A stretch of 64,000 nt of DNA, taken from NCBI RefSeq assembly GCF_030818955.1, contig NZ_JAUTBF010000001.1, positions 2,170,001-2,234,000 on the forward strand. Direction: 5' to 3'. Origin of the DNA: Microbacterium trichothecenolyticum. Its GTDB lineage: Bacteria > Actinomycetota > Actinomycetes > Actinomycetales > Microbacteriaceae. The notes under the pieces were generated by a model. The model was not told where the DNA came from. It did not search any database and saw only the letters and a program-made list of their open reading frames with translations. The position numbers and the translations under genes are program-made. Positions 40,966 to 63,309 of this stretch are shown here, piece by piece (position 1 is the stretch's first letter; every line of letters starts with the position of its first letter).

Positions 40966-43900
40966 TCAGCCGCAGCGGCGCGCGCCGTAGGCCGCCTTCA
41001 CCTGCGTCGCGGCACCGCCCGCATCGGTGGCCTTGATCGTCACCGTGCCGGCCGGAATCGACGACTTGCGAACCGTGAAGGTCTGCGTCGAGGTCTTCCC
41101 GGCGGCGAGCGAGGCGACCGTGCGCGACCCGAAGGCCGAGGTGAGCGCCACCGACACCGGTGCGTCATCGCGGTTGGTGACCGACACGGCCACGATCACC
41201 TTGCCCGACACGCAGCGGCTGGTCACTGCCCTCGAGATCTCGGGGCCGGGCGCCGGGACCGTCTGCGGCGCAACGCTCTGCAGCGTGGGAACGATCTTCT
41301 GCATCAGGCCGTCGGCGCCGAAGGTCACCCGATCGATCGTCGTCTCGCGATTGGTGCCGTTGCCGTTGGGCATCGCGAACCGGTGGTAGGCGATGTACCA
41401 GTCGTCGGTGCCGGGCACGTTGATGATCGAGCTGTGGGCCGGTCCCTTGATACCGAGCGCGAGATCCTTCTCGAGGATCACCCCGCGGTACGTCCACGGA
41501 CCGTTCATGCTGGTCGCGGTGGCGTAGCCGACCCGGTAGTTCTCGCTGCCGGTGTCGTCGATGGCGTACGTGAGGTGGTAGAGGCCCTTCCGGTAGTTGA
41601 AGAACACGCCCTCGCGGAAGTCGGTCAGTCCGTTGATGCGCTGGTACGTCCCCGGCTTGATCGACTTCATGTCGTCGGACAGCTCCGCGAGCACGGGCGA
41701 ACCGTTGCCCCAGCCCAGGTACCACTTGCCTGTCACCGGGTCGTGGAACGCCGCCGGGTCGATCGCCTGTCCCGAGGTGACGGCCTCGTTGTTGAGGATC
41801 ATCGCGTTCGGCTCCGCCGTGAACGGCCCCTCGGGGCTGTCGGCCACGGCGACACCGATCGTCTTGCGGTCCAGCGAGGGGTTGTGCCCGCTGAAGTAGA
41901 AGTAGTACTTCCCGCCCCGCTCGATGATGGTCGGAGCCCACGCGTTGCCCGTCGCCCACGGCACGTTGCCGTTGGCTCCATCGAGCGTCAGGAACGGCTT
42001 GTCGGAGCGCGTCCAGTCGACGAGGTTCTTCGACTTCCAGACGTAGAACTCCTTGCCGCCCCACCCGTCGAAGCCGTCGGTCGTGGCGTAGATGTAGTAG
42101 GTGTCGCCGAACACCGCGATGTTCGGGTCGGCGTACAGGCCCGGCAGCACGGGGCTGTTGACGACGAGCGCTTCGATCTTCCAGTCGGTCTTGACACCCT
42201 TCGAGGTCGTCACGGTGTAGGTGACGGGCGAGCGCAGGTCGACCGTGGTGCCCGACGCCGGCGACGCCGTCGACCCGGGGACCAGGCCGAAGGTCGGAGC
42301 CAGCTTCGACACGTCGGTGCCCTTGACCACCGGCAGCTTCACCGTGCGCGCCGCGTTGTCGACGATCGGCGCCATCTTGAGCTTCTCGGGCTGCGTCAGC
42401 GAGACGTCGACCAGGTGGTCTTCGACGCCCGCGTTCTGCAGGACCTCGGTGCTCGAGAGCGCACGGTTGTACACGCGGATGTCGTCGTACCAGCCCTGGA
42501 AGTAGCCGTCCCCGCCGTAGAACGACCGGCCCAGGTACCCGGCGAGGTTCGAGCCGAGCTCGCTCACCGTGGCGTTGAGGGCGAGGTTCTCGTCGACCTT
42601 CACGCCGTCGATGTACATGCGCATGGTCCGGCCGTCGTACACGAGGTCGTACTTATGCCACTGGCCGCTCGAGATGGAGCCCGAGACGTCGGACTCCCCC
42701 TGCCACGTCGCCTTGGTGATGGCGTTGCGCGCCTCGTCGCCACGAACCCGCAGGAACGAGTAGCGGTCCTGGCTCTGCCCGAAGGCGAAGGTGAAGAAGT
42801 TGCCGCTCGTGCGCTCGGACTTCACGTCCATCGAGACCGTCATCGTGTTGCGACCGTCGAAGAAGCCGGTCGGGAACGAGGCGAAGCCGTTCGCGGCGCC
42901 GGTGAGGCGCAGAGCCGAACCCTTCGTGGCATCCGTCGCGACGGCGGCCGTGCCCGATGCGGTCAGGTCGGCGTCGCCGACCGAGTCGGCGAGGGATCCG
43001 TTCTCGAAGGTGTACTCCGCGATCGGGCCCTGCTGCGGCTCCTCGGGGTCGGTCGGCGTGACCGGGGCGTCGCCGTAGGCGGCGAGCAGACGCGCCTCCT
43101 CCGCCTTCGACAGGCGCAGCACCGACCCGTGACGGAAGGTCTGGTCGAACGAGAACTGGTCGGCGCCCGGCCCGCTGCTGAGCTGACGGAATTTCAGGCT
43201 CGACAGCGTGTCGGCGATGTGGGCGTAGTAGTTGAACTCGTCGCCCATGACCGACCAGCGGCCGTCGGGCAGTTGGTAGACCGTCAGGCCCTCCATGCGG
43301 GTGCGCATACCGGCGGCTGCGGCTTGTCCGGGCTCGATCTTGCGCGTCCAGGGGCCGTCGAGCGACGGCGCCGTGTCGACGAGCGTGTCCCAGTCGGAGG
43401 TCGAGAAGCGGTAGTAGGTGTCGCCCTCCTTGGCGATGGTCGAGTCGATGACGTTGCGACCGCCCTGACCGTCACCCTTGGGGTTCATCGTCGTCCAGAT
43501 CTCGGGCGTGGTGAACGTGACGAAGTCGCGCGTCTTGGTGAGGTACATCCGCAGCGCCCAGTCGGGGGTGTTGTTGTCGGTCTGGTCTCGTGCCGCCCAG
43601 TAGACGTAGTACTCGCCGGTGGCCTCGTTGTAGATCGCCTCGGGCGCCCACACGCAGCCGGCCTTGTCGAGCCCCGCGAACACGATCCGCTGGTCGCTCC
43701 AGGTGACCAGGTCGGTGGACTCCCAGACGACGAGGTTCTTGCTCGCGTTCAGCTGGTCCCAGCCCGATCCGCCGGGGCCGCCCCCTTCGGCGTGCAGGTC
43801 GGTTCCGATGATCCAGTACTTGTCACCCTCGGGCGAGCGGACGAGGTGCGGGTCGCGCACACCGAGGTCACCACCGAGGTTGGCGAGGATCGACTTGTTG

Positions 43901-45303
43901 TCGTTGAGCTTCTCCCAGTGCAGGCCGTCAGTGCTGTGGCCGTAGAAGATCTTCTCGTAGCCGCCCTCGACGCCGAAGTGCGTCCACAGGTAGCCGGCCG
44001 AGTAGTCCTTGTCGAGGCCTGCGGGCGCCGCCTTGACGGTCACCTCGATCTGTCGGGTGACGGAGGTTCCGGATGCCGTGGCGGTCAGCGTCACTCTCGT
44101 GTCGGCGCCACCGCGCGTGACGACGCCCGCGGCCTTGCCGCCGGCGGCCGAGGTGGTGATCACGCCCGCGGGAGAGGCCGACCAGGTGATGGCGGTGCCG
44201 TTGACCGACCCCTTCGCGGGCAGCGTGATGTTGCCGCGCACGTCGTTCGCGTTGGGGATGCTGATGGCGTCGAGGTCGGCTTTGGCGAGCTCGGCGGCAC
44301 CGGGCATCGGCGCGACGGTGACCGCGAAGGTCTTCGTCTGGGTGGCCGCGTTGCGGGTGAGCTTGGCCGTCAGGGTGGCGGTGGCCGCGGGCTGGCCGGC
44401 GGCGGGACGCGTGACCTTGCCGGTGGCGCTCACGACGTTGGCGTTGCTCGTCGACCATCCGATCGTCGAGCCGTTGACGCCGGTGGCGGGCAGGGCGAGG
44501 TCGGCCGTGACGGCGCTCAGGTCTCCGAGCGAGAGAGCCGCGACGTCGCGCTGCAGGCGGGTGGCGTCGGTGGGGACGAGCGCTGCGACCTCGGATGCCG
44601 AGAGAGCGGCGTTGTACACGCGGAAATCGCGCACGCTGCCGGCGAGGCGCCGGTCTGCGTCGTAGACGGAACGTCCGATGTAGTTCGCCGTGGTCAGCCC
44701 GCCTCCGATGGCGCTGGGCTTGGTCGTGACGCCGGTGGCCTGGCCCACCTGCGCGCCGTCGAGGTAGATGCGCGCGGTGTCGGTCGCGTCGTCGAGGGTG
44801 TAGGTGATGGTCTTCCACACGTCGCGCGGGAGATCGGCGTTGCTGTTCGCCGTCTGCTCCGTCTGCCAGTTGCCCGTGGCGATCGACGTACGGTAGGCGT
44901 TGCCGGTCGAGAAGAGGTAGCCGTTGCCGGCCCCGCCCGAGGTGTTGCCGAGACCGTAGATGAAGTACGGCGTGCCCTGGTCGCCGCGGATCAGCACCTC
45001 GGTGCTGATGGTGATCGAGTCGAGACCCTGGAGAAGATCGTCGGGCAGGTCGACGTAGTCGTCGGTGCCGTCGAGGCGCACACCCTCACCGCCCGTGAGG
45101 GTCGCCCCTTCTTTATAGGCCGCGTCACGGCCTTTGCCGGACGCGTCGACGGCGACGGTGCCATCGGTCTCGGTCAGCGGGTACGAGGCGACCAGCCGAT
45201 CGTCGGCTGCGGCAGCTGGCTGCGCGGCGACGAGGGCGCCGGTCAGGGCCAGGGCCAGGCTCGTGACGCCCGCCAGGGCGCGACGGAAAAGGGTCTGCTC
45301 CAT
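40966..45303 (-). CDS. Secreted multi-modular glycosidase with two GH43 catalytic modules (1445 aa)
   Basis: Signal peptide to about residue 33 (AQPAAAADD). Modules in order: LamG-like jelly roll (35-235), two Ig-like segments, GH43 module 1 (about 430-740), LamG-like (758-940), linker, GH43 module 2 (about 1050-1350), and C-terminal module (1360-1445). Module 1 shows LGVRDPHLV, GCVWAPEAIY and MEGLTVYQL. Module 2 shows the three GH43 acids clearly: YADPNIAV, GQAIDPAAF and FREGVFF. GH43 covers arabinofuranosidases, arabinanases and xylosidases; the neighbouring GH127 and araA favour arabinose-containing polymers. The ATG at 45303 has GGAAGGA upstream. A LacI operator fused to the promoter lies 50 bp upstream. 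Confidence 0.88.
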   Translation of the reverse strand: MEQTLFRRALAGVTSLALALTGALVAAQPAAAADDRLVASYPLTETDGTVAVDASGKGRDAAYKEGATLTGGEGVRLDGTDDYVDLPDDLLQGLDSITISTEVLIRGDQGTPYFIYGLGNTSGGAGNGYLFSTGNAYRTSIATGNWQTEQTANSNADLPRDVWKTITYTLDDATDTARIYLDGAQVGQATGVTTKPSAIGGGLTTANYIGRSVYDADRRLAGSVRDFRVYNAALSASEVAALVPTDATRLQRDVAALSLGDLSAVTADLALPATGVNGSTIGWSTSNANVVSATGKVTRPAAGQPAATATLTAKLTRNAATQTKTFAVTVAPMPGAAELAKADLDAISIPNANDVRGNITLPAKGSVNGTAITWSASPAGVITTSAAGGKAAGVVTRGGADTRVTLTATASGTSVTRQIEVTVKAAPAGLDKDYSAGYLWTHFGVEGGYEKIFYGHSTDGLHWEKLNDNKSILANLGGDLGVRDPHLVRSPEGDKYWIIGTDLHAEGGGPGGSGWDQLNASKNLVVWESTDLVTWSDQRIVFAGLDKAGCVWAPEAIYNEATGEYYVYWAARDQTDNNTPDWALRMYLTKTRDFVTFTTPEIWTTMNPKGDGQGGRNVIDSTIAKEGDTYYRFSTSDWDTLVDTAPSLDGPWTRKIEPGQAAAAGMRTRMEGLTVYQLPDGRWSVMGDEFNYYAHIADTLSSLKFRQLSSGPGADQFSFDQTFRHGSVLRLSKAEEARLLAAYGDAPVTPTDPEEPQQGPIAEYTFENGSLADSVGDADLTASGTAAVATDATKGSALRLTGAANGFASFPTGFFDGRNTMTVSMDVKSERTSGNFFTFAFGQSQDRYSFLRVRGDEARNAITKATWQGESDVSGSISSGQWHKYDLVYDGRTMRMYIDGVKVDENLALNATVSELGSNLAGYLGRSFYGGDGYFQGWYDDIRVYNRALSSTEVLQNAGVEDHLVDVSLTQPEKLKMAPIVDNAARTVKLPVVKGTDVSKLAPTFGLVPGSTASPASGTTVDLRSPVTYTVTTSKGVKTDWKIEALVVNSPVLPGLYADPNIAVFGDTYYIYATTDGFDGWGGKEFYVWKSKNLVDWTRSDKPFLTLDGANGNVPWATGNAWAPTIIERGGKYYFYFSGHNPSLDRKTIGVAVADSPEGPFTAEPNAMILNNEAVTSGQAIDPAAFHDPVTGKWYLGWGNGSPVLAELSDDMKSIKPGTYQRINGLTDFREGVFFNYRKGLYHLTYAIDDTGSENYRVGYATATSMNGPWTYRGVILEKDLALGIKGPAHSSIINVPGTDDWYIAYHRFAMPNGNGTNRETTIDRVTFGADGLMQKIVPTLQSVAPQTVPAPGPEISRAVTSRCVSGKVIVAVSVTNRDDAPVSVALTSAFGSRTVASLAAGKTSTQTFTVRKSSIPAGTVTIKATDAGGAATQVKAAYGARRCG

Positions 45304-45591: not shown

Positions 45592-48500
45592 ATGTCTTCT
45601 ATCCGGAAAGCGGTGGCGCTCAGCGCTACCGCGATGATGATCGCCAGCGGATTGGCGGTGATCGCCCCCACCGCCGCGACGGCAGCAACCCTCGACTCGG
45701 CCAAGGTCCTCGACCTCCGCTTCGACGGGAATCTCACCGACGCGGGTCCCGACAAGGTCGGGACGTCGATGCTGAGAGGTCAGGACACCTACGTCACCGG
45801 CATCCACGATCAGGCGCTGAACCTGCGCGGTGGCGACGCGGTGAACCTCGGCACGAGCGCTGCGCTCCAACCCGAGAACCTGACCCTCTCGTTCTGGTTC
45901 AAGCCCACGGGCTCGATGGGCGCAGGCGAGCAGGTCTTCACCTGGAACAAGAGCGCGTACAACTCGGCGGGCTGGTACCTGACCGCCGAGAACGCCAACA
46001 CCCCGCTCGCCCTGTCGATCGGCCCCAGCTCGGGTCAGCCGTACAAGGTCGTGGTGAACGGTTCGCGCGATGCCTTCTTCCCCGCCGACCAGTGGACGCA
46101 CGTGGTCGTCACGTACAACCAGGCGAGCAAGGCCGTCACCTTCTACCGCAACGGCGAGCAGCAGGTCTCGTCGATCGCGAACGCCATCGGCGCAGACGCC
46201 ACCGGCGCGCTGACGTCCGAGAGCACGACGACGAAGTCCATCGGCTTCAACGGCCCGCAGTACAACAGCGCCTACGTCAACGGTGCACTCGACGACTACA
46301 CCCTCTACAACGCCGTGGCCTCGGCATCCGATGTCGTCGCCCTCACCCAGGCGAACAACCCCGCCTTCGATCCGGCCGACGTCGCCCAGCGCGGCCTCGA
46401 TCAGGTGTCGGTGCCGGCGAGCGCCTCGACCAGCTTCGGCCTGACGACGTCCGCCTCCAACGGCACCGCGTTCACCTGGACCTCGTCGACGCCGGGCGTC
46501 ATCGTCGTCAACGGCGGCCAGGCGAGCGTGACGCGGCCGAAGGACGCCGAGGCCACGGTCACCCTCACCGCATCGGCGACGTACGCCGGAAGCACGCCCC
46601 GCACCAAGACCTTCCAGGTCACGGTGCCGAAGGAGGGTGTCGCGACCTCGATCTACGTCGACGACACCGACCTCAACGAGGTCCTCGTCACCGACCCGTA
46701 CCTGCAGAACAGCAACGCCAAGATGGTCGACTGGCTCCTCACGCTCGACCCCAAGCGCTTCCTCTACTCCTTCGATCAGCTCGCGGGCATCCCGACCAGC
46801 GCGCAGCCGTACGGCGGATGGGAGCGCACCACGGGTGCACGCTTCCAGGGCCACTTCTTCGGCCACTTCGTCTCGGCGCTGTCGCAGGCGTACTCGACCG
46901 AGACCGACGCGGGTCGAAAGGCCCAGCTGCTGGCGAAGCTCACCACCGCGGTCGACGGTCTCGCCGCCGCGCAAGCCGCCTACGCGCAGAAGGACCCGTC
47001 GAACACCGGTTACGTCGCGCCCTTCCCGGTGTCGTACCTGCCGCACGGGGCCGATGGCCTCATCGTGCCGTTCTACAACCTGCACAAGGTGCTCGCCGGC
47101 CTCATCGACGCCTACCGCTACGCGCCGAAAGACGTCTCCGACAAGGCCCTGTCGGTCGCGAGCGGCTTCGGTTCGTGGCTGAACGTCTGGGGTTCGCGTC
47201 AGGCCAACCCCAGCGCGCTGCTCAGCACCGAGTACGGCGGCATGAACGAGGCGCTGTACGAGCTGTACAGCATCACCGAGAACGACCAGCACAAGGAAGC
47301 CGCCGAGCTCTTCGACGAGGTGCAGCTGTTCCAGCAGCTCGCCGCGAACCAGGACGTCCTGGCCGGTAAGCACGCCAACACCACCATCCCGAAGCTGGTG
47401 GGTGCTCTCAAGCGCTACACCGTCTTGACCGACAACCCGACGCTGTACGCCCGTCTGACGGATGCCGAGAAGTCGAACCTCGACATGTACCGTCGCGCGG
47501 CCGAGAACTTCTGGCAGATGGTCGTGAACGACCACTCCTACATCGGCGGCGGCAACAGCTACTCGGAGCACTTCCAGCAGCCGGGCACCCTGCACGAGTT
47601 CGCCACCAACGGCATCACCACCGGCTACGGCGAGCAGTCCACGGTCGAGGGATGCAACGAGTACAACATGCTCAAGCTCACGCACGGGCTCTTCCGCGTG
47701 AACCCCGACGTGAAGTACGCGGACTACTACGAGAACACGTACATCAACACGATCCTCGCGTCGCAGAACCCCGAGACGGGCATGATGACGTACTTCCAGC
47801 CGCAGACCGCCGGTTACGCCAAGGTCTTCGGCCGGAAAGAGGACGAGTTCTGGTGCGATCACGGCACGGCGACCGAGAGCTTCACCAAGCTCGGTGACTC
47901 GATCTACTTCCGCAAGGGCCAGTCGGTGTACGTGAACGTGTTCCGCTCGACGGAGTTCTCGTCCACGCCGCAGAACCTGAAGCTGACGCAGACGGCTGAC
48001 ATCCCCAACACCGACACGGCCACCTTCACCGTCGCCGCTCTCGATGGGGGAACGCTGGCGGAGGGCACCACCCTGCGCCTGCGGGTGCCGTCGTGGTCGC
48101 CGAACCCCACCCTGACGGTGAACGGCCAGACGCGCGACGTCGCGGCCGCGACCGACAAGGGGTACGTCGTGGTCCCCGTCTCCGCCGGTGACACCATCGC
48201 GTACAAGCTCCCCGCCAAGGTCCAGGTCGAAGCCGGCACGGAAGACCCCAACTGGGTCGCATTCCGTTACGGTCCCGTCGTGCTGTCGACCGAGCTCAAC
48301 CGCGCGAACGTCGAGGCGACCACCCCGGCCGGCATCCTCGTTCGCATGAGCGCCGCCGACAAGTCGGTCATCAACAGCGTCCGCGTCGGCGACACCGAGG
48401 GCTTCAAGAAGGACATCGAGAAGAACCTCGTGCGTCAGCCCAACGGCCTGGACAACAACGGTCGCACCGTCATGAAGTTCACGCTGCAGAACGTCGACGC

Positions 48501-49731
48501 CGCCTCCGCGGGGCTGACCTTCGAGCCGTACTACAGCATGTACAACGCCCGCTACGCGATCTACATGAACCTCATCCAGCCCGACTCGGCCGCCGCCCAG
48601 GCGCTGATCAAGAGCGAGAAAGAGAAGCTCCGCATCGACGAGATGACCACGGACGCCCTCACCTCGTTCGACAACAACAACAGCGAGGCGGGGAAGAACT
48701 ACAGATTCAACCGCTCGTCGGTGGGCACCTGGCTCGGACAGCAGTACCGCGACGGTGAGATGTCGGCCGAGGCGTTCTTCCAGTACGACATGGCCGTCGA
48801 CACGACCGCGCCGAAGAACTACCTCGGCGTCCGGTACTTCGGAGGTGACAACGGCCGCACGTTCGACGTCTACATCAACGACGTCAAACTGAAGTCGGAG
48901 CGCGTCACCAACGCCAACGGCGCGGACTCGTTCTACATCCAGTACGACGAGATTCCCGCTTCGGCGCTGGCCGACATCGCCGCGAAGGACCGCTACAAGC
49001 GCGACCAGGCGGGCAACTACGTGCTCGATGACAAGGGGAACAAGATCCCCATCATCACCGTGCGCTTCCAGGGCACCGGCGCCAGCTACGTGGGCGGCGT
49101 GTTCGGGGTCTACACGACCACGACCACGACGTACTCGACCGACACCGAGCTCAACGCGCTGACGTTCGACGGCGGCACGCTGAGCCCCAAGCTGGCCGAC
49201 GGGACCTACGACTACACCGTCACGGTCGCGCGCGACGCGACGACGGCGACGTTCGACGTCGATCCGGCCACCCCCAGCGGCCTGGTCTACGTCGGTGACA
49301 TCCTCATCGACGACACGCAGAAGCGCACCGTGAACCTCAGCACGGACGGCACGCCGACCGCGCTGACCCTGCGCTCCGTGGCGCAGGACCACACGACGGC
49401 CAAGACCTACAACGTCAAGATCGTCCGGGCCGCGGCCTCCGCGATCACGACCTCGGTCACGGCCTCGTCGCGGTGCGTCTCCGGACGCGTCACGCTCACC
49501 ACGACGGTGAAGAACACCAGCACCGTGCCGGTGTCGTTCGAGGTCACCACCCCGTTCGGCAAGAAGAGCGTGACGCGCCTCGCTCCGGGCAAGAGCGCCA
49601 GCCAGGCGTTCAGCACCCGGCAGAAGTCGATCACCGCGGGCGAGGTGTCGGTGACCGCCAAGGCCCAGGTCGACGGTGCCACGTCGACGGCGACGAAGAA
49701 GGCGGGGTACACCGCCCGCAGCTGCGGCTGA
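45592..49731 (+). CDS. Secreted GH127 beta-L-arabinofuranosidase, multi-modular (1379 aa)
   Basis: Signal peptide to about residue 37 (PTAATAAT). A LamG-like domain (about 38-270) and an Ig-like segment (280-345) come first. The GH127 (DUF1680) barrel follows from about residue 353 (LYSFDQLAG, YGGWERTTG, GHFFGHFVSAL, YGGMNEALYELY). Key metal residues: E686 and C688 in VEGCNEYN and C755 in FWCDHG. In the studied GH127 enzyme HypBA1 zinc is held by Glu, Cys and a Cys-Cys pair of which the first is the nucleophile; here the second Cys is Asp756. A cadherin-like beta sandwich (about 1185) and the shared C-terminal module (1293-1379) end the protein. It should release beta-L-arabinofuranose from plant glycans or extensin. 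Confidence 0.88.
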   Translation: MSSIRKAVALSATAMMIASGLAVIAPTAATAATLDSAKVLDLRFDGNLTDAGPDKVGTSMLRGQDTYVTGIHDQALNLRGGDAVNLGTSAALQPENLTLSFWFKPTGSMGAGEQVFTWNKSAYNSAGWYLTAENANTPLALSIGPSSGQPYKVVVNGSRDAFFPADQWTHVVVTYNQASKAVTFYRNGEQQVSSIANAIGADATGALTSESTTTKSIGFNGPQYNSAYVNGALDDYTLYNAVASASDVVALTQANNPAFDPADVAQRGLDQVSVPASASTSFGLTTSASNGTAFTWTSSTPGVIVVNGGQASVTRPKDAEATVTLTASATYAGSTPRTKTFQVTVPKEGVATSIYVDDTDLNEVLVTDPYLQNSNAKMVDWLLTLDPKRFLYSFDQLAGIPTSAQPYGGWERTTGARFQGHFFGHFVSALSQAYSTETDAGRKAQLLAKLTTAVDGLAAAQAAYAQKDPSNTGYVAPFPVSYLPHGADGLIVPFYNLHKVLAGLIDAYRYAPKDVSDKALSVASGFGSWLNVWGSRQANPSALLSTEYGGMNEALYELYSITENDQHKEAAELFDEVQLFQQLAANQDVLAGKHANTTIPKLVGALKRYTVLTDNPTLYARLTDAEKSNLDMYRRAAENFWQMVVNDHSYIGGGNSYSEHFQQPGTLHEFATNGITTGYGEQSTVEGCNEYNMLKLTHGLFRVNPDVKYADYYENTYINTILASQNPETGMMTYFQPQTAGYAKVFGRKEDEFWCDHGTATESFTKLGDSIYFRKGQSVYVNVFRSTEFSSTPQNLKLTQTADIPNTDTATFTVAALDGGTLAEGTTLRLRVPSWSPNPTLTVNGQTRDVAAATDKGYVVVPVSAGDTIAYKLPAKVQVEAGTEDPNWVAFRYGPVVLSTELNRANVEATTPAGILVRMSAADKSVINSVRVGDTEGFKKDIEKNLVRQPNGLDNNGRTVMKFTLQNVDAASAGLTFEPYYSMYNARYAIYMNLIQPDSAAAQALIKSEKEKLRIDEMTTDALTSFDNNNSEAGKNYRFNRSSVGTWLGQQYRDGEMSAEAFFQYDMAVDTTAPKNYLGVRYFGGDNGRTFDVYINDVKLKSERVTNANGADSFYIQYDEIPASALADIAAKDRYKRDQAGNYVLDDKGNKIPIITVRFQGTGASYVGGVFGVYTTTTTTYSTDTELNALTFDGGTLSPKLADGTYDYTVTVARDATTATFDVDPATPSGLVYVGDILIDDTQKRTVNLSTDGTPTALTLRSVAQDHTTAKTYNVKIVRAAASAITTSVTASSRCVSGRVTLTTTVKNTSTVPVSFEVTTPFGKKSVTRLAPGKSASQAFSTRQKSITAGEVSVTAKAQVDGATSTATKKAGYTARSCG

Positions 49732-49737
49732 CATGTC

Positions 49738-50085: not shown

Positions 50086-53000
50086 TCACGAGCAGCTCCG
50101 CGCCTTGTAGGCGGCGTTCGTCTGGCTCGAGACGCTCTTGCCGCCCACGACGGCCGTGGCCGTGACCCCGACCGAGCCGGCCGAGACGGCGGCGGCGCGG
50201 GTGGTGACCGCCGACGACGCCGTCGCACCAGGGGCGAGGGAACGCATGGTCTTCTTTCCCCAGGCCGTGCTGAGCGCGACGCTCACCGACGACGAGCTCG
50301 TGTTCTTCACGGTCACCGCCAGCGTGACCTTCCCGGCGACGCATCGCGTGCTCGCGGTCGCCGCCACACTCACGGGAGCGGTGACCGTGACCGTCGTCGA
50401 GACGGTTCGCAGCGACGGCAGCACCTCCTCGTCGCGGGTCATGTCGAAGATCGGCCGGTCGCCCGCGGCGTAGTGGATGCGGGTGATGCGGGTATCGCGC
50501 CCGTTCCCACCGACCCCGTCACCCCACGTGTGGTAGACGTACAGGTCGTTGCCGTCTTCGTCGGTCGTGACCGCTCCGTGGCCCGGGCCCTGCTCGTAGG
50601 TGCGGTAGTCCCACACGCCCACCGGCATCGCCTCGCTCTTGAGCAGGGGCATGTCGTACTTGTGCCAGCTGTCGATGTCGGTCAGGTCGCTCGACTCGTC
50701 GGCCCACGCACCGCCCACGATGTACTTCGGGCTCACACCGTCGCTCGAGTAGATCAGGGTGATGCGCCCGTCGCGCTGGATGGCGAACGCCCCTTCGGCC
50801 AGGCGTTCCTCGAACGACATGCTCGGAACGATGATCGGCACGGGAGTTCCGATGATCCGGGTGGGGTTGCTCGGATCGACCTTGGCGATCCACGTGGCCG
50901 GGTCGCTGAGGGGCGCGCCCTCGGGCGTGTACCGCTGCGACCACGCGTAGTACGCGGTGCCGCCCGACTCGAAGTACGTCATGTCGAGGCTGATGTTGCG
51001 CCCGAACTCCGCGCGGCCCAGCGCCGAGCCGTCGGACTTCAGGACGGCAGCCGGCTGGGACCAGTCGGCGGGGTTGCCCGGGTCGCCGCCGTCGCGCAGC
51101 TGCATGATGTGCGCCTGCACGGTGTACCACTGCCCGCCCTCGTTGGACTGCGAGTTCGAGGGGTTGAAGCACGGAGCGAACAGGATCGACAGCTTTCCGC
51201 CGACCTCGTGGATCTCGGGCGCCCAGTAGCATCCGGCGATCACCCGACCGTCGGTGGTGCGGTCGCCGCGCGTGTAGCGATTGAGCAGATCGACCTCGCG
51301 GTCGCGTCCGCCGTTGTCGTCGGCCAGCTGATCGATCGTGTCGGCGACACGGATCGGCAGGTGCGCCGATGCGATGTTGTTGTTGTTGGTGTCATCGGTG
51401 GCGATGAACAGGTAGCGGGTCTTGCCGTCGCGCTCGTACCGGTAGATCGTCGGGTCGGCCCGGTTGTAGGCGAAGGGTTCCGCGTACTGGTGCTGCCGAA
51501 CGGTCCCCGACAGGGTGTACGTGCCGGGGCCGGCCGTGGCGAGCCGCTCGAACTGCTCCTTGTTCCAATCGATCCCGAGCTTCGCGGTCGAGCCGTCGGA
51601 GTAGGCGAGGTTCGCCTTCGCCTTCGCGAGGGCAGCCGTGTCGCCCGACGTGATGGTCTGCGGGTCGACCGTGACTGCCGTGTTGACGACCCGGCCGAGC
51701 CGATCCGTGAGCGCCTTCGCGGTCGAGGCCGTCACGGCGAGCGTGCCGGCGGGTCGGGCGTCGGCGACGCGACCGGCGAAGCCGGACAGGTCGGGGGCGG
51801 CCACGGTCAAGGCACCACCCGAGCGCAGCTCGCCCCGGTTGCCCTCGGTCACGACCCAGGAACGCTTTCCGCCGTCTTCGGGCCAGAACGGCGCGGTGCG
51901 CAGCTCGGTACGGGCGAGGTCGGCGACCGTGGTCGACTTCGCCGCGCCCGTGGCATCCGTCCACGAGACGAGGTAGCGCTTCTCGGCGGAGTCGTAGACC
52001 GCGCGAGGGGCGACGACGCCGCCGGTGGTGCCCAGATCGATCAGGCCGAGCTCGTCGAAGTCGGTGGCGGCGGCGTCGCGCGCCTTGAACACGAGAGCGC
52101 TCGAGGATTCGGTGCCGTCGGCTCCTCCCCCCTGCAGCACGCGCGTCGCGATCACGCCGATCGTGCCGTCGGCGAAGGTGAACAGCGAGGGGTTCGAGAT
52201 GCCGCGATGGTCGATGCGATCGACGGCGAAGAATTCACCCTCGGCGAAGACCACGCCGCCGTTCTTGTAGAGCGGGGCCGCGTCATCGACCGACGTGCCC
52301 AGCGCCAGGTGCAGGCTGCGTGCGACGGAGTCGTGGTTGGCGTCGTGCTCGCCCGTGGCGTTGCGGGTGTACGAGACCAGCTGGCGGCCGGTCGAGGCGC
52401 TCAAAACGGTCACCGAGAAGGTCTTCTCGACGGTGGTCGCCCCCACGGCGACACGCGCCGTGATCCGACGGACCTGATCGGATGCCGTGGTGTTGGTCAG
52501 CACGCGGGAGTCGAGGGTAGTGCCGTCGGCGCTCCACTGGATGCTGTACCCGCTCGCTTCGGGCAGGCTCGTGCCCGAGGCGACGACGGGCGGCACCACG
52601 AGGGCGGCGCGCAGGCGCTCGGCGGCGTCGGCGTCGCTGTCGGCGCGCACGGTGAGGGTGGCGGTCGCACCGGTGGCCGTGGCACCCGCGAAGGCGGCCG
52701 TGGGGGTCAGGGTGACGGTGGCGTCGGGAGAGCCGGCCGCGGGCCGGGTCACCTTGCCGGTGGCGTCGATCACCGCGGGGTTGCTGCTGGCCCAGGTGAG
52801 CGACGATCCGCCGGCTCCCGAGGTGGGCAGGGCGATGTCGGAGGTGACGGTGCCCGAGACCGGCGGGCGCGCGGCGTCGGCGTCGGCGCGCGCGATGGCG
52901 GTTGCGGCGGGCGCGGCGTCTTCCTTCACCTGCGCGGCGGTCAACGCCTGGTCGTAGACGTGCACGTCGTCGAGCGCGCCGACGAAGAAGGGGTCGGGCC

Positions 53001-53718
53001 CGTAGAACGATTTGCCGAGCAGGCCCGAGAAGGTCGAGGTGCCCACGGTGGCGGCGCCCGTCGCCGACGTCGGTGTGGTCTGGGCCAGTTCCCCGTCGAC
53101 GTAGGTCGAGACGCTGACGCCGCTGCGCAGCACGACGGCGACGTGCGACCATCGGCCGACCGCTGCGGGGGCGTCGTCGGAAGCGCGTTGTTCGCTGCCG
53201 GACTTGACCGCGCCGATCAAGCGGCCGCCGCACTCGGGGGTGGTGAAGAGGTATCGGTCGGACGACTGGCCCAGCGTGTAGGCCCAGGCGCAACTCTGCC
53301 CACCCTCCCAGCGCATCCACGCCGACATCGTCACGTCGGTGGTGGCGGCCGTGGTGAGACCCGGCGCGATCTCGACGAAGGCCGCGTTGGACCCTGCGGC
53401 TCCACCCGGCAGGCGCAGCGCCGTGTCGCCGGAGCCGCGTGGGCCGGCGACGACGCTCGCGCCTGTTCCGCGTACCGTTCCGGCGTGCGCACCGGCGCCG
53501 TCGCTGACGGTGCTGCCGGCTGCGACGCCGGTTCCGACACCCGCGGAGGCCGAGAAATCGTACGACAGGATGGGGCTCGGGACCGCGGCTTCGGCGGGCG
53601 CGGCGCTCATCGTGAGCGCCCCCGTGGTCAGCGCCGCGGCCATCAGCAGCGCGAGGGGCCGTCGCCCTCTCGACGATCGACTTCTGTCCGTGTGCGTGGA
53701 TACGCTGTGCGTCGTCAT
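50086..53718 (-). CDS. Secreted GH43 family glycosidase, multi-modular (1210 aa)
   Basis: Signal peptide to about residue 44 (SAAPAEAAV). A LamG-like jelly roll (about 48-240), Ig-like segments and a degenerate beta-propeller half (ISNPSLFTFADGTIGVIATR, VVAPRAVYDSAEKRYLVSW) come first. The working GH43 propeller follows with the three acids in NRADPTIYRY (about 754), ISLDMTYFES (about 911) and RLAEGAFAI (about 974), and GCYWAPEIHEV between. The shared C-terminal module with RCVAGK and terminal Cys ends the protein. ATG at 53718 follows AAAGGGG and gives a clean signal peptide; the upstream in-frame Mets do not. A LacI operator lies 91 bp upstream. Probable arabinan- or arabinoxylan-active enzyme. 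Confidence 0.87.
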   Translation of the reverse strand: MTTHSVSTHTDRSRSSRGRRPLALLMAAALTTGALTMSAAPAEAAVPSPILSYDFSASAGVGTGVAAGSTVSDGAGAHAGTVRGTGASVVAGPRGSGDTALRLPGGAAGSNAAFVEIAPGLTTAATTDVTMSAWMRWEGGQSCAWAYTLGQSSDRYLFTTPECGGRLIGAVKSGSEQRASDDAPAAVGRWSHVAVVLRSGVSVSTYVDGELAQTTPTSATGAATVGTSTFSGLLGKSFYGPDPFFVGALDDVHVYDQALTAAQVKEDAAPAATAIARADADAARPPVSGTVTSDIALPTSGAGGSSLTWASSNPAVIDATGKVTRPAAGSPDATVTLTPTAAFAGATATGATATLTVRADSDADAAERLRAALVVPPVVASGTSLPEASGYSIQWSADGTTLDSRVLTNTTASDQVRRITARVAVGATTVEKTFSVTVLSASTGRQLVSYTRNATGEHDANHDSVARSLHLALGTSVDDAAPLYKNGGVVFAEGEFFAVDRIDHRGISNPSLFTFADGTIGVIATRVLQGGGADGTESSSALVFKARDAAATDFDELGLIDLGTTGGVVAPRAVYDSAEKRYLVSWTDATGAAKSTTVADLARTELRTAPFWPEDGGKRSWVVTEGNRGELRSGGALTVAAPDLSGFAGRVADARPAGTLAVTASTAKALTDRLGRVVNTAVTVDPQTITSGDTAALAKAKANLAYSDGSTAKLGIDWNKEQFERLATAGPGTYTLSGTVRQHQYAEPFAYNRADPTIYRYERDGKTRYLFIATDDTNNNNIASAHLPIRVADTIDQLADDNGGRDREVDLLNRYTRGDRTTDGRVIAGCYWAPEIHEVGGKLSILFAPCFNPSNSQSNEGGQWYTVQAHIMQLRDGGDPGNPADWSQPAAVLKSDGSALGRAEFGRNISLDMTYFESGGTAYYAWSQRYTPEGAPLSDPATWIAKVDPSNPTRIIGTPVPIIVPSMSFEERLAEGAFAIQRDGRITLIYSSDGVSPKYIVGGAWADESSDLTDIDSWHKYDMPLLKSEAMPVGVWDYRTYEQGPGHGAVTTDEDGNDLYVYHTWGDGVGGNGRDTRITRIHYAAGDRPIFDMTRDEEVLPSLRTVSTTVTVTAPVSVAATASTRCVAGKVTLAVTVKNTSSSSVSVALSTAWGKKTMRSLAPGATASSAVTTRAAAVSAGSVGVTATAVVGGKSVSSQTNAAYKARSCS

Positions 53719-53809
53719 CGACGCCCCTTTCCGATTCGTCATCGAACTCAGATGCCCCGGACATTCAGCCGGGGAAGCGAATGGTGCTGACACCGACGGT
53801 AGCGAAGAA

Positions 53810-55243: not shown

Positions 55244-55965
55244 CGGGCTCCTCCACGGCATCCACGGTGACGGGATCGAGGTGGGTCGCGCCGTCGTCGT
55301 CGGTGAACGTCCCGCTCAGGTGCACCCAGTCGCCCGAACGCAGGTCGGTCGGAAGGTCGGCGGCGACGACGGGAACCGCGAACAGTTGGGCGTCGACGGT
55401 GCAGCAGGTGACGGCGTAGCGCCCGACGCGGACGGCGCCGTCATCGTCGATGAGCAGGGAACCCCGTCACCTCGGCCTGCTGACCGACGAGGTCGGCAGC
55501 TGTGGCGCCACTGCCCAGAATGCTCGCCCAGTCCCTGATCGAGAAGCGGGTGGGGTCGTTGCCGATGAGCGAGGGTCGCGACACGTCTCCCCCGTCGACG
55601 GCGCTCTCGATCAAGAGTGCCCGTTCCGCACTCAGGGTCGTCGGCGGCGCGACCAGGAGAGCCAGCCCCGAGACGATGACGAGCGCACCCGTCGTGGCGA
55701 TCGACAGGGTGTACCCGCGGCGACGCGGGGCGTGATGCTCGTGGTCGTGCTCGTCGCCGTGGCCGTGGCCGTCATCGCGACGGGTGGCCGTGACCCACAC
55801 GGCCGCGGCGAAGAGCCCGGCGCCCACGACGCTGAGCACCACGGTGAAGACGACGTAGCGGGGGTGGATGTACAGCGCAAGGTCGCCCGCGGCGGCGAGG
55901 ACGAAGGTCGCGACGAGGCCGATGCCGCAGAGGACCAGACCCGCCCAGCGGGAGACGGGCGTCAG
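55224..55965 (-). pseudogene. TIGR03943-like membrane protein, frameshifted by one inserted base
   Basis: The first frame (CTG at 55965, overlapping the permease stop as CTGA) gives helices WAGLVLCGIGLVATFVLA and YVVFTVVLSVVGAGLFAAAV. A His/Asp-rich loop (words HGHGDEHDHEHH) follows, then a third helix and IRDWASILGSG. The frame breaks at 55457-55459, where GGG on the plus strand should be GG to read VTGFLLIDDDG. The rest continues in the next frame as RVGRYAVTCCTVDAQLFAVPV and ends EEPDDPYLS. Restored length is about 246 residues, normal for proteins paired with UPF0718-type permeases. The His-rich loop suggests metal binding. Either a real lesion or a one-base sequence error. Confidence 0.78.
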
Positions 55966-57060: not shown

Positions 57061-59769
57061 TCAGCGGCAGGTGATCGCCGCGTACGTCGCGGTCAGCTTC
57101 GTGGCGGCTCCACCCGCGGTCGCTGTGACCGTCACCTCGCCCGCGGGCATCGGGTTCTTGCGCGCCGTCACGGTCGCGCTCGTGCTCTTGCCCGCGGCGA
57201 GGGAGGCGATCGTCTTCGAGCCGTGGGCCGAGTCCACCTTCACCGCCACGGGCGCCGTGCCGCCGTTGGCGACGCGCGCGACGACGACGGGCTTGCCGGC
57301 GACGCACCGCGTCTCGGCCGTGGCCGTGACCGCCAGGGCGGGAGCGGTGACGACCACGTCTGCCGAGACCGTCAGCGCGGTCGAGCTGAACAGGCGCCGA
57401 TCGGCGGCGTTGTACGCGGTCGAGCCGTTCGCCCCCACCCACTGGTTGAGATTGGCTCCGATCGTGCGCACCGTTCCGGTGACCGGGTAGGTACCGGGCC
57501 GTGCGGTGTCGACGCCGGCCAGGTTCCACGTCACCGGTTGCGCGGCCGTGCCGCGGCCGTAGGCCAACCTCACCTGCGCCTCACGGGGAAGGGCGGCCGA
57601 GACCGCCTGCGCGTTCGCGCCCTGGGCCACGGTCGCGTCGCCGAGGTCGCCGGTGACGACCGCCGCGGCATCCGCCTGGCGGATCCCGTCGTACTGCGCG
57701 AGGGTCAGCGGCACGATCCCGCCGTGCTTGGTGCTGGGCGCCATCGAGAAGGTGTCCGACACGAGCTGCGTCCAACCGGCATCCAGGTTCTCGGTCTGCA
57801 TCGGCCGGTAGCCGGTCGAGGGGATGACGTCGACGTACAGGTACCAGTGGTCTTCGCCGTGGCGCTGGAACACCGCCGGGCCTTCGACGCCACCGGCGTT
57901 GCCGCCCGCCCACACGGCGCCGATGCGCTCCTGCACGGTCGTCCACGCCGTGGTGGGCTTCCACCAGTCGGTGGCCGTCGTCGACTCCATGTAGATGCCC
58001 CGGCCGAAGGCGTTGTCCTTCGTGACGCGGTAGGTCGTGCCGTCGTTCTGGATGACGGTGGTGTCGATGGCGTTGCCGCCGGTGTCGATCATCTTTCCGC
58101 CGTAGCGGTAGGTCTGCTGCGTGAAGTCGGTGGTCGCTCCCCACAGCACGCGCGAGGAGGTGGAACCCGTGTGGGCGGCGTTGTCGTACATGGTGGACGA
58201 CCAGTACAAGACGAACGCACCGCTGCCGTCGGCGTTGTAGCCGGGGACCCACGTGGCCTCGGGCGCCCAGGCCATGCCGAGTTCGGCGGCCTTGGCACCG
58301 GCGGGAGAGAGAGCGACGTCGAACTGGCGCAGGTCGCTCCAGGTGACCAGATCTTTCGACTCCCACACGTTCAGCTTCGTGCTCCCCCGCGATTCCCAGT
58401 AGCACCAGTCCGTGCAGGAGCCGGTGCCGCGGTCGCCGCCGAACACGCGCAGGTCGGTGGCGATGATGTAGTACGTCTTGGTCTCGGGGTTGTAGGTCAG
58501 GTACGGGTCGCGGACGCCGGTGGTGCCCAGCTGCGACGCGAGGATGGGCTTGCCCCCGTTCAGCGGGTCCCACGCCTCGGGGTCGTCGCCGCGCGAGACG
58601 TCGAGGTAGATCTTCTCGGCGTAGCCGTTGGCGTCTTCAACGAAGTGCACCATCGCGTAGCCGAAGGCGTCGCCGGCCGAGCGGGCGGGCTCGACGGTGA
58701 CGGGCACCGAGCGGGTGGCCGCCACGCCGCGCACCGTCGCGGTCGCCGTCAGCGACGTGGTGCGCGCGGCCGCACCCGGCGCGGGCTGCTGCGCGGTGAC
58801 GGTCGCTCCGTCCGCGGCGACGGTGAGACCGGGGTCGGTCGAGCTCCACGACACGCTGCCGCCCGAGGTGGGCAGGGTCGTGACGCTCTCGTCGACGGTG
58901 ACGGGGGCGAGAGCGTCGACCACGGCCTGCGCGGCACGCCGGTGCTCGTCGGAGTGGATCGACGCGTCAGCCGTCGACACGCGCGCGACCTCGTCAGCGG
59001 TCAGGGCCCGGTCGTAGACGCGGAACGTGGAGATTTCGCCCTTGTACATGGGGTCGGGGTAGGGCGCACGACCGATCGTGTTGAGGGTCTGATCGGTGAT
59101 GTCGGCGGGAGAGAGGGCGGTGGGGGTGGATGCCACCTGCTCGCCGTCGACGAAGAAGGTGATGCGTCCGGCCGCGCCGTCGATGACCGAGGTGAGGCTG
59201 TACCAGCGATCGGCAGAGAGGGCCGAGCCGGAGCGGGCGTTGACCTCGCCACCGCCGCCGTTCGTGGTGATGACGGTGCGGGGGTTGTCGCGCACCGACG
59301 CGAAGTACGACCGCGTCGGTGAGTCACTGCCGATGTTCCAGAGGAAGTTCCAGGTGTTCTTCATCGACGCGTCGAGCTTGGTCTCGATGGTCACCGTCGC
59401 CGATCGCGCGCCGGCGAGAACGTCGCCCGGCAGTCGCACCCAGCTGGCCGTCGGGCTGGTCTTCTCACCGCCGGTGAAGACGAGCGACGATCCGGTCCAC
59501 AGCGCATCGGAGCCGTTGACGACGGTGGCGGCGCCCAGCGCGGTCGGCGCGCTGTTGGGCACGCTCGAGCCGGCGGTCTCGTCGAAGACGTATTCCGCGC
59601 GCAGGTTCGTCGAGGGGATCGTCGTGTCGGCCACGGCCGGAGCCGTCGCCAGGGGCAGGAGGCCGCCGGTGAAGAGGGCGGCGCCCGTGACGAGGCCGAG
59701 CAGGGCACGTCGACGCCGACGGGGAGTCGGTGCGTCGGGCGCGGGGGGCGCGGTCGGGTGCGTGGTCAT
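57061..59769 (-). CDS. Secreted GH43 family glycosidase (902 aa)
   Basis: Signal peptide to about residue 46 (LATAPAVAD). A LamG-like jelly roll (about 55-255) and an Ig-like segment (270-360) precede the GH43 propeller. Candidate acids are in TGVRDPYLTY (about 420), NAIDTTVIQN (about 570) and GGVEGPAVFQ (about 630), with MAWAPEATW in between. A beta linker (about 700-810) and the shared C-terminal module (RCVAGK to the terminal Cys-Arg) follow. AAAGGAG precedes the ATG at 59769. The promoter and LacI operator lie directly upstream, in a divergent gap with the next GH43 gene. Likely target: arabinan or related plant polysaccharide. Confidence 0.87.
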   Translation of the reverse strand: MTTHPTAPPAPDAPTPRRRRRALLGLVTGAALFTGGLLPLATAPAVADTTIPSTNLRAEYVFDETAGSSVPNSAPTALGAATVVNGSDALWTGSSLVFTGGEKTSPTASWVRLPGDVLAGARSATVTIETKLDASMKNTWNFLWNIGSDSPTRSYFASVRDNPRTVITTNGGGGEVNARSGSALSADRWYSLTSVIDGAAGRITFFVDGEQVASTPTALSPADITDQTLNTIGRAPYPDPMYKGEISTFRVYDRALTADEVARVSTADASIHSDEHRRAAQAVVDALAPVTVDESVTTLPTSGGSVSWSSTDPGLTVAADGATVTAQQPAPGAAARTTSLTATATVRGVAATRSVPVTVEPARSAGDAFGYAMVHFVEDANGYAEKIYLDVSRGDDPEAWDPLNGGKPILASQLGTTGVRDPYLTYNPETKTYYIIATDLRVFGGDRGTGSCTDWCYWESRGSTKLNVWESKDLVTWSDLRQFDVALSPAGAKAAELGMAWAPEATWVPGYNADGSGAFVLYWSSTMYDNAAHTGSTSSRVLWGATTDFTQQTYRYGGKMIDTGGNAIDTTVIQNDGTTYRVTKDNAFGRGIYMESTTATDWWKPTTAWTTVQERIGAVWAGGNAGGVEGPAVFQRHGEDHWYLYVDVIPSTGYRPMQTENLDAGWTQLVSDTFSMAPSTKHGGIVPLTLAQYDGIRQADAAAVVTGDLGDATVAQGANAQAVSAALPREAQVRLAYGRGTAAQPVTWNLAGVDTARPGTYPVTGTVRTIGANLNQWVGANGSTAYNAADRRLFSSTALTVSADVVVTAPALAVTATAETRCVAGKPVVVARVANGGTAPVAVKVDSAHGSKTIASLAAGKSTSATVTARKNPMPAGEVTVTATAGGAATKLTATYAAITCR

Positions 59770-59948: not shown

Positions 59949-59962
59949 TGTGAGCGATAACA
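59949..59962. promoter_or_regulatory. LacI-type operator before the frameshifted GH43 gene
   Basis: TGTGAGCGATAACA, identical in core to the site at 45354, lies 37 bp before the ATG at 60000. TAACAC inside it could be the -10. Confidence 0.7.
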
Positions 59963-59999
59963 CAACACCTCACGGTCATTCACTTAATGGAGAGTGGAC

Positions 60000-62900
60000 A
60001 TGCACCTGCCCTTCGCGGCGCGCCCGACGACGCCCCCTGAGTGCCCCGGCCTCTCACCCGCACGCGCGCGCCGGCACCGAACGGCCGCGGTCGCCCTGAG
60101 CGCCACCGCCGCCCTCGCGCTGTGCGCGGGGCTGCTCACCCCCGGTGCGGCCAGCGCCTCCGGAGCGGAAGACGCGCTGATCGCCGACTTCACGTTCGAC
60201 AGCGGCACGACCAGCTTCACGGGCGCGGGCGCCACCGCCACCACGCGCGGCACGGCGCAGCTCGCACCCGGCGTCAGCGGCAACGCGGCTCAGCTGAGCA
60301 GCAGCTTCTGGCTCGATGTGGCCAAGACCGACGGCACACCGCTGCTCGCGGGGCTCGACGACGTCACCATCTCGTACGACAGCAAGCCGAGCGCCTCGGG
60401 CAACGTCGGCTGGACGGTGTTCGCGGCCCGCAGCGCCGCGACGCAGGCGTTCGCGCAGGAGCACTACCTCGGATACCTCGACCGCACTACCAGCGTCACC
60501 GTCGAGCGGTACGACAACTCCGGCTCCCGCAACACCGCGGGCAACCTCGTTTCGACTGTTGCCACCACGGAGTGGAAGCACGTCGACCTCGTGCTGTCGG
60601 GCGCAACGGCTCGTCTGTTCGTCGACAAGAAGCTCGTCTCGACGAACACGACCGGACCCGCCCTCTCCCAAATCCTCGGAGCCTCGGGCGGCGTGCTCCA
60701 GGTGGGCAAGGCCAACTGGGGCGGCGGCGAGTACTTCGCAGGGCTCCTCGACAACCTCCGCATCTACAACCGCGCCCTGACCCCGTCGGAGCTCGGTGTG
60801 GGCGCGGTCGCCAGCGACCCGGCGGCGGCTCTCAGCATCCCGGCGCGCATCACCGGCGACCTCCCCTCCTCCGTCCTCGGAAACGCCGTGACGTGGTCGG
60901 CCACCGGCGCCGGCGCCTCGCTCGTCTCGGCCGACGGAAAGGTCACCCGCCCGGCATCCGGTCCCGTCGCGGTCCAGCTGACCGCCACCATCGCCGGCGT
61001 CGCGCAGCCCGTCACCGCCGCAGCCCAGATCCTCGATGCCGGTGGCGACATCGCCACGTACGTCAAGACCGTCACGACCACGGGCGGCGTCAAAGACGAC
61101 CCGCTCGCGTACAACGACGACCGCCGCTCCGACGCGCTGTTCGTCTCGGCCCGCCCCGCGGGCGCGTCGACCTGGGAACCGCTGAACCGCTCGCAGGCCA
61201 TCCTCTACGCCACCTGGAACGGGGCGCAGAACGCGAACCCGAACGCCCAGGTCGGCTCTCCCACGCTCATCCGCTTCGCCAACGGCTCCCTGGGTGCGGT
61301 GGCGGCGCAGAACAACGCGACCGACTCGGTCTTCGTGTGGGACGCCCCCGACGGCGCGACGTTCCGCAACCAGCGCACCGTCAAGATCGCCTCCGACGGG
61401 TCGATCGTGAAAGACCCGCGCATCGAGTACGACGCCGCGACGCAGAAGTACACGGCGTTTCTGGACCGACGAGCTCACCGGTGAAGGGCGCGTGGCCCGT
61501 CTCGACGGCCTCACCGGTGCCAGCACGCCGACCACGGCGACCAAGGCCGACCTGCGCACGCTCGGTGTGAGCGGAACGGGCCTGCCCGGCTTCGCGACGC
61601 AGACGCAGGCGAGCTCGTTCGCGCTGTCCAAGAGCGAGTTCGATGTGTTCTCCAAGAACTACGTCGACCTGCAGAACACCGGTGTGCGCACCCCGGCCGA
61701 TGTGCGGGTCGACAACGGCAAGAAGGTGGGCGCGTCCACCCTGCCCGCCACCGTCACGCTCGACTACAACGACGGCTCCACCAAGAACCTGCCGGTGGAA
61801 TGGGATGCCGCCGACCTCGCCGCCATCGACTCGCGCAAGGCCGGCGTGTACGAGGTGTCCGGAACCGTGCAGCAGACGGCCGAAGAGATGGTCAACGATG
61901 CGCGGGCCGATCCGCACCTCTTCTTCAACGAGGACGACGGCTACTGGTACCTCACCGGTTCGCACTACTCGATCCCCTCGAACGCACCCGACGACCAGCT
62001 CATCGACGCCAACGCCTATCGGAAGATCGGCCTGAAGCGCGCCACCACCATCGCGGGGCTCAAGGACGCCCCCGAGCAGATCGTCATCGACCCCGACGGC
62101 GGTACCCCCGGCAAGCAGGCCCAGTACCCCAACACCTTCTACGGCTGGGGCGGATACATCTGGGCGCAGGAGTTCCACAAGATCAACGGGCGGTGGTGGA
62201 TCGTCGCCGGCATGAACCGCGGCTACGCGCCCACCAACGGCTGGTGCGACAACACCGTGCTCATCCCCTACACGGGCACCGAGGAGTCGCTGCGAAACGG
62301 GGGGCTCGTGAACCAGGCGAACTGGGGCGAGCCGACCATCCTCGAGGGCGCCGCCTTCGACGTCTCGTACCTCGAGCGCCAGGAGAACGGTGCCACCCAG
62401 GGCTACTGGGTGATGCCGAACGGCGGCCGCGTGCTGGTGGGCAAGGCCAAGATGGGCGCGACCGGCACTGTTCCGCTGCTCGACGGCGGACTGAGCGAGA
62501 TCTACGCGCTCAGCCAGCCGTGGGAGTACGGCAAGCAGGCCCCGACGCCCTCCGACACGAACGAGGGCGCCGACCAGGGCATCGTCGAAGCGCCCTTCAT
62601 GGTCGAGCACGGCGACTACATCTACCTCACCTACTCGGGCGGCACGGTCGACAAGTACTACGACCTCGGCATGCTGCGCGCCCCGAAGGGCGCTGACCTG
62701 ACGAACCGCGCGAGCTGGACGCAGGTGCCCTCCCCCGTGCTCACCACGAACGACACCTTCACCGGCCGCATCGGTGGAGCACCGCAGGCCGGAACCGGCC
62801 ACAACTCCTTCGCGACCGACCCGGCCGGCAACCTCGTGCTGGCGTACCACGCGCGCCCCTACCCGGAGCCGCACTCGGGCGACGCGGCGGGCGGCCTGTT

Positions 62901-63309
62901 CGACCCCGACCGCAACAGCTGGTTCAAGGCGGTCAACGTCCGCGCCAACGGCATGCTCGACCTGTCGCTCACCTCGGCACAGGAAGTCGCTCCGGCGAAC
63001 CGGACGGTGACCGCACGGGTGATCGTCGCAGCTGCCCCTCCCGGCGTGAAGGCCACCGTCGCCACGCGCTGCGTCTCGGGCAAGGTGACGCTCATCACCA
63101 CGGTGACCAACACCGGCGCCACCGCGGTGTCGGGAACCATCGCCAGCAGCTACGGCTCGAGCGCGTTCACCAACCTGGCCGCGGGTAAGGCCGTCTCCAA
63201 GACGCAGTCCACCCGCAGCGCCTCCGTCGACGCGGGCACCGTGACCGCGACCGTGCGGGGCAGCTCCACCCCGGTGACCGCGACCTACCGCGCCACGAGC
63301 TGCAAGTGA
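60000..63309 (+). pseudogene. Secreted GH43 family glycosidase, frameshifted by one inserted T
   Basis: Signal peptide MHLPFAARPTT onward to GAASASGAED. A LamG-like domain (about 60-265), Ig-like segment and a degenerate propeller half (LIRFANGSLGAVAAQNNATDS) are in the first frame, which breaks at 61458-61460. GCGTTTCTGG should be GCGTTCTGG, giving AFWTDELTGEGRVARL as in its paralogue. The second frame carries the GH43 module (ARADPHLFFNEDDGYWYLTG about 636, GYIWAQEFH, VEAPFMVEHGDYIYLTYSGG about 863) and the shared C-terminal module. As written the enzyme would stop at about residue 494 without its catalytic module. Restored length is 1102 residues. It may be a sequencing artefact. Confidence 0.82.

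Follow-up and report, generated by a model that had tools for sequence, protein, structure and literature searches.

A C-terminal Ig-fold module of secreted actinobacterial proteins that may hold enzymes at the cell surface

Known C-terminal surface-retention systems

Retention of secreted proteins at the cell surface by a C-terminal element is an established principle. Parts of PMC13251363 describe sortase signals, with motifs that include LAXTG, as being cleaved for a covalent link. The CW_binding_2 domain (CWB2, PF04122) is presented in parts of PMC5817068 as a non-covalent wall-polymer-binding domain of about 90 residues that is reported in Micrococcales, and parts of PMC10202324 describe the type A C-terminal domain (CTD) of type IX secretion as C-terminal, seven-stranded, and Ig-like, with conserved surface residues.

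The module described here was found in five genes of the window, which is the whole 64,000-nucleotide stretch of the Microbacterium trichothecenolyticum genome that was analyzed. It resembles the sortase sorting signal (LPXTG or LAXTG, a transmembrane [TM] stretch, and a basic tail) in taking the same place in orthologues and in being carried by many unrelated secreted proteins; in contrast to that cleaved, covalently linked signal, it is a folded domain without motif or TM stretch. With CW_binding_2 it shares a size of about 90 residues, and CW_binding_2 replaces it in six orthologues, but CW_binding_2 mostly comes as three adjacent domains whereas the module is nearly always single and has no match to that profile. 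Like the type A CTD (PF18962/TIGR04183), the module is C-terminal, seven-stranded, and Ig-like; unlike that domain, which belongs to Bacteroidota and is tied to a diderm export machine, it occurs in proteins of the window that have no match to the CTD profiles. The module may represent an undescribed way of holding enzymes at the actinobacterial cell surface.

Module copies and their gene cluster

The five C termini to which a first-pass annotation had assigned a shared unit do carry one homologous module of about 90 residues, with two Cys residues and flush with the stop codon. Gene A (40966..45303, minus strand) encodes a signal peptide, LamG and aBig_2 domains, an alpha-arabinofuranosidase-like region below the cut-off, a GH43 domain, and the module, which ends at the stop (40966..41247) and was delimited by alignment, profile search, and modeled structure. 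The start of gene A was picked by the position of its signal peptide, and these limits replace the 2929-aa open reading frame (ORF) assumed at first. A secreted ricin-lectin protein that lacks the module adjoins gene A (39345-40484, plus strand), and an HExxH stretch was noted in it by eye.

The modules of the other four genes are C-terminal and were delimited by alignment and profile search. Gene B (45592..49731, plus strand) encodes a signal peptide, LamG, aBig_2, a GH127 beta-L-arabinofuranosidase, a cadherin-like domain, and the module (49441..49731). Gene C (50086..53742, minus strand) encodes a signal peptide, LamG, aBig_2, Big_4, GH43, and the module (50086..50376). Gene D (57061..59769, minus strand) encodes a signal peptide, LamG, an aBig_2 domain and an alpha-arabinofuranosidase-like region that are both below cut-off, Big_4, and the module (57061..57342). 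An ArsP_1-type predicted permease lies between the glycosidase genes (55965-56993, minus strand). Gene E, a GH43 gene at 59994-63309, seems to be split into two ORFs by a frameshift near 61480, either real or a sequencing error. Its 5' fragment (59994..61484, plus strand) encodes a signal peptide, LamG, and an aBig_2 domain below cut-off, and its 3' fragment (61492..63309, plus strand) encodes Big_4, GH43, and the module (63037..63309). The protein ending at 63309 is the 3' part of this apparently split gene.

The catalytic parts beside the modules include the unrelated families GH43 and GH127, as had been proposed. The proposal does not extend to protein D, in which a Pfam GH43 match is absent at E ≤ 1 and which scores 106.5 bits against the NCBIfam alpha-arabinofuranosidase model NF052546, far below the cut-off of 500. 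Downstream of the cluster we found genes for an FGGY kinase, a class II aldolase, two BPD_transp_2 permeases, and a LacI regulator. These genes and the GH43 and GH127 enzymes suggest that the cluster serves arabinose-rich glycans. The closest named relatives of the window proteins are from Microbacterium.

In the genome itself (3.74 Mb, one contig) the number of copies rises from five to seven. A profile built from the seven recovered a sixth module at G000:C1:2246205-2246486 (minus strand) and a seventh at G000:C1:2252262-2252534 (plus strand), 12 to 19 kb past the edge of the window. All seven lie on both strands of a single cluster of about 42 kb (G000:C1:2210969-2252534). One copy used as the query against this genome found the other six at E values of 5.9e-19 to 1.0e-9; an eighth match (E, 0.047) is regarded as chance. 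The other copies share 37 to 51% identity with copy A, and the alignment of all seven has 11 invariant columns, both Cys residues included.

Searches for a known family

The module had been called unrecognized, and this description stands: in the window proteins, none of the Pfam and NCBIfam families scores at or above its cut-off across the module. Just two Pfam families overlap it, both below cut-off, namely CARDB with 12.1 of 22.7 bits and Ig_CFAP65_7th with 18.9 of 28 bits, and no NCBIfam match overlaps it. Neither CW_binding_2 (PF04122), PF18962, nor TIGR04183 is matched by a window protein at E ≤ 1, and the Pfam and NCBIfam profiles gave no described carbohydrate-binding module (CBM) or wall-domain family, a match that the first-pass annotation had named as evidence against its view.

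When 112 modules were scanned singly, the best E value among the families listed (the first 25 of 43 and of 28, with cut-offs given for the first member only) was 5.2e-05, for DUF4232 with five members, and none of the listed families matched more than 12 modules. PLipase_C_C (PF05506) matched 12 of the 112 at E ≤ 0.1 (best E, 0.0028) and no window protein at E ≤ 1. Homology to a named family in Pfam, NCBIfam, or the solved structures found no support, the listed matches being either below cut-off or generic to Ig folds. A C-terminal putative CBM has been reported for the arabinanase EndoMA1 in parts of PMC10509167; PDB sequence searches with the module returned no EndoMA1-type entry among the matches listed. 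A literature search that included motif strings, with most subscription journals outside its coverage, listed no paper that describes the module in its title or the opening of its abstract; the motif strings returned no paper at all. C-terminal surface retention is already known as a principle, and it is as a domain family, without a name in the Pfam and NCBIfam copies that were searched, that the module appears to be new.

Fold, cysteines, and conserved residues

Structure prediction gave a seven-stranded Ig-like beta-sandwich (pLDDT, 98.1) that aligns with solved Ig folds. Foldseek searches with this model returned a best E value of 1.8e-3 and nothing at or below 1e-3, and many unrelated Ig folds tied at the same Z score; the Ig-like domains of GH2 enzymes are among the described domains with similar folds.

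The position of the module is nearly constant. Of 213 distinct modules, 201 stop 0 to 2 residues before the stop codon, and those from outside the order are terminal in 25 of 29 cases. Both Cys residues are present in 193 and both absent in 12 of 205 modules with the stop in view, an aligned length above 70, and a wider tail allowed; none has a single one. A narrower rule finds a single Cys only in four odd rows, in which the Cys lies farther from the end or the module is cut by the end of the ORF or locus. In 156 of 179 modules, the final Cys is either the very last residue or the one before it. It is very likely that the module is closed by a disulfide, as had been supposed, since the pair is kept or lost together in every module counted. 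On L215:4351-7955 (plus strand), neighboring genes have closely similar modules, one with both Cys residues and the next with both replaced.

The conserved cluster consists of R11, K16, Y/F39, G40, K/R42, R60, Y87, and the Cys residues 12 and 92 (numbered by the first row of the alignment). Positions 39 and 87 are 95 to 96% aromatic, counting His. Among nine Cys-less rows, R11 is missing in four and R60 in six. Conservation was 2.36 bits at the end away from the enzyme versus 1.45 at the other (one-sided Mann-Whitney P, 0.002), in a test whose ends were assigned after conservation had been seen and whose tip was taken from strand order rather than coordinates. The median net charge of the module is +1, compared with a mean of -4.7 per 90 residues for the rest of the carrier (123 carriers), and the module is net positive in about 54%. 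A strong basic charge as the anchoring principle was rejected because this median is only +1 and because just 35 of the 123 carriers have the module as their most positive 90-residue window.

Carrier proteins

The 124 full-length carriers fall into 15 groups, the largest with 99 members, when they are linked by common segments of at least 180 residues outside the module. By a simple rule, 117 of them have a signal-peptide-like N terminus. Twenty further regions, mostly from low-copy genomes, were added to offset sampling biased toward dense clusters; the module was at most 4 residues from the stop in all 20, and 15 of them were included in the Pfam scan.

Most carriers seen are glycan active. 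GH43 was found on 22 of the 42 carriers scanned, and the other glycosidase families are GH127, GH59, GH51-type, GH95, GH78, GH53, GH30, GH20, and GH32. Further carriers contain GSDH, ThuA, cutinase, subtilase, a phytase-like domain with LTD, an SdrD_B/CarboxypepD-type protein, or multicopper oxidase. The module is therefore not confined to glycosidases, as the first five proteins had implied, for a subtilase, phytase-like proteins, sugar-dehydrogenase-type proteins, and a copper oxidase also carry it. In the source annotation, several carriers are named "LamG-like jellyroll fold domain-containing protein."

The module is nearly always single. A 3010-aa PKD/Big_1/cutinase protein (L126:1488-10517, plus strand) has three modules near and at its C terminus that lack the Cys pair, and P0090 is a second tandem case, with modules at residues 811-901 and 910-1000 of 1001. 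In two genomes outside the order (L210 and L211), two module-like domains stand side by side at the C termini of proteins with lengths of 754 and 767 aa, and the first of the two is a partial match. On L217:1110-4435, divergently transcribed genes encode a multicopper oxidase and a protein that weakly matches plastocyanin/azurin; the module ends both proteins, and they are perhaps a surface electron-transfer pair.

Module and wall anchor in orthologues

What the sequence of the window could not show is that orthologues have, where the module would stand, sortase-type tails or repeats of CW_binding_2. Among 68 module-less orthologues from three unrelated families, 50 have sortase-type tails, 6 have CW_binding_2, and 12 have neither, so that an anchor is present in 56. 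Relatives of the catalytic part of D (120 of 402, query included) have a terminal module in 104 cases, LA[AS]TG followed by a TM stretch and a basic end in 11, CW_binding_2 in 3, and a partial sequence in 1 (P0136); P0044, in which the module is followed by 102 more residues, was not counted as module-less. Among relatives of the GH127 part of B (120 of 4230, query included), 95 have the module, 13 have sortase-type tails (one LAVSG), 3 have CW_binding_2, and 9 have neither. In both sets, each row that lacked a terminal module had its tail read individually. The third family consists of phytase-like/LTD relatives of a carrier that does not act on glycans (30 loci of 53 matches, which came from 52 of 199 genomes): 2 have the module, one being the query, 26 have sortase-type tails, and 2 have neither. 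Three related subtilase loci, with the C terminus out of view in all, were left out of this comparison.

An automated sortase-tail rule was satisfied by 23 of 40 module-less GH43 and GH127 rows (GH127, 12 of 25; GH43, 11 of 16, with P0044 among the 16), whereas all 199 rows that end in the module failed it. Control ORFs near module genes came from heuristic gene calls and were chosen to begin like a signal peptide, to lack the module, and to have at most one internal TM stretch (33 multi-TM ORFs excluded); they satisfied the rule in 3 of 78 cases, and a further 4 had a TM-like tail. The rule also flagged one module ORF near module genes, and four such ORFs show a TM-like stretch that is, by its letters, part of the module. 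A Fisher P value was set aside because orthologues are not independent of one another and one row had been miscounted.

The trees require a minimum of 4 switches between module and anchor for GH127 and of 1 for GH43, which is a small number of independent events. A first count of 7 forced changes for GH127 and 3 for GH43 had included broken and tail-less proteins and was discarded. With the tail-less proteins kept and two broken rows set aside, the GH127 tree has 8 changes, about half of which are losses to nothing. P0157, a protein named as Microbacterium and 81% identical over the GH127 part, ends in an LAATG tail, and proteins at 86 to 98% identity have the module. P0195 and P0236, which have no anchor, look broken. 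Seven GH127 proteins (P0205, P0208, P0212, P0220, P0235, P0243, and P0268) simply end with neither module nor anchor, and retention is thus dispensable. Two sortases are present in the M. trichothecenolyticum genome, so the module is no stand-in for a missing sortase system.

Possible functions of the module

The module is a homologous, terminal, seven-stranded domain on unrelated secreted proteins, its Cys residues are absent only together, and anchors stand at the same place in orthologues. On unrelated proteins its place is taken by either of two kinds of anchor, and no protein with both module and anchor was seen, so the reading that we favor is that it does the same job as those anchors. 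We put a probability of about 0.47 on the reading that this C-terminal Ig-fold module keeps secreted actinobacterial proteins at the cell surface non-covalently, doing what a sortase signal or CW_binding_2 does in orthologues. The enzyme would join the sandwich at one end; the conserved cluster, as judged from strand order, would lie at the opposite, outward end, where it might grip an anionic or glycan component of the wall. The basic and aromatic character of this end suggests that the ligand is a wall polymer. If the module retains enzymes, it would show where many polymer-degrading enzymes of soil- and plant-associated actinobacteria act, it would offer a short portable tag for surface display, and names such as that of the LamG-like proteins would become testable. 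A wider formulation is doubtful: that monoderm Actinomycetota have a display route in which a terminal Ig-fold tag, bound by a wall receptor specific to it, has repeatedly replaced sortase signals and CWB2, as a folded counterpart of the type IX CTD.

It is unlikely that the module is instead a CBM that directs the enzyme to its substrate by binding a polysaccharide of plants or microbes through the conserved aromatic and basic end. The prevalence of glycan-active carriers, the two aromatic positions, and the sugar kinase, aldolase, sugar permease, and LacI genes beside the copies in M. trichothecenolyticum are all consistent with such a role. However, the recognized LamG, ricin, CBM6, CBM35, and F5/8 domains of the same carriers stand upstream in varied places while the module is terminal, it is also found on a subtilase, phytase-like proteins, and a copper oxidase, and wall anchors replace it in most module-less orthologues. 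Of the roles offered in the first-pass annotation (a common anchor, sorting, or glycan-binding unit), anchoring and sorting are kept as options, and a freely placed CBM-like unit does not agree with the nearly constant terminal position.

The substitution of module and anchor is also compatible, less well, with a shift from anchored to released enzymes. A stapled, ligand-free Ig domain could then be a structural cap that shields the C terminus from proteolysis or helps folding after export, with the module enzymes released and the anchored orthologues needing no cap. The Cys pair, the last Cys at the very end, and the compact, confidently modeled fold would suit a cap, as would the substitution if module forms are the released forms. 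We consider this improbable, since a cap alone leaves the four conserved basic residues of one end unexplained, copies without the Cys pair are maintained (12 of 205), and the seven tail-less GH127 relatives do with neither cap nor anchor.

A sorting signal that a dedicated machine for export or surface attachment would recognize, as with the type IX CTD in Bacteroidota, is very unlikely, and a monoderm cell lacks an outer membrane that proteins would need to cross: the size, C-terminal place, and seven-stranded Ig-like build of the module resemble those of type A CTDs (parts of PMC10202324), and there are up to 26 copies per genome, but the N termini of 117 of 124 carriers are of the ordinary signal-peptide-like kind and PF18962/TIGR04183 are unmatched in the window proteins.

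Taxonomic distribution

Whatever its function proves to be, the module is a domain family that is nameless in the libraries searched and reaches high copy numbers. The seven-copy profile detected it in 40 of 299 genomes at the level of the family, in 53 of 396 at that of the order, and in 7 of 396 at that of the phylum, where one match is partial and marginal. A broad profile built from 112 diverse module copies found it in 68 of the 149 genomes from the genus, a single genome having as many as 26 copies, and in 30 of 296 genomes from the class (own genome included in these counts); copy numbers are lower bounds, because only part of the first-look candidates were scored. Restriction to the order, which the narrow profile had suggested, is refuted by the broad one, since 19 of the class genomes with the module are outside the order. 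The 13 named records comprise 4 from Microbacterium, 7 from Cellulosimicrobium, 1 labeled Sphaerisporangium, and 1 labeled Archangium, the last a weak and partial match. Protein names among the matches add Rathayibacter, Agromyces, Arachnia, and Glycomyces.
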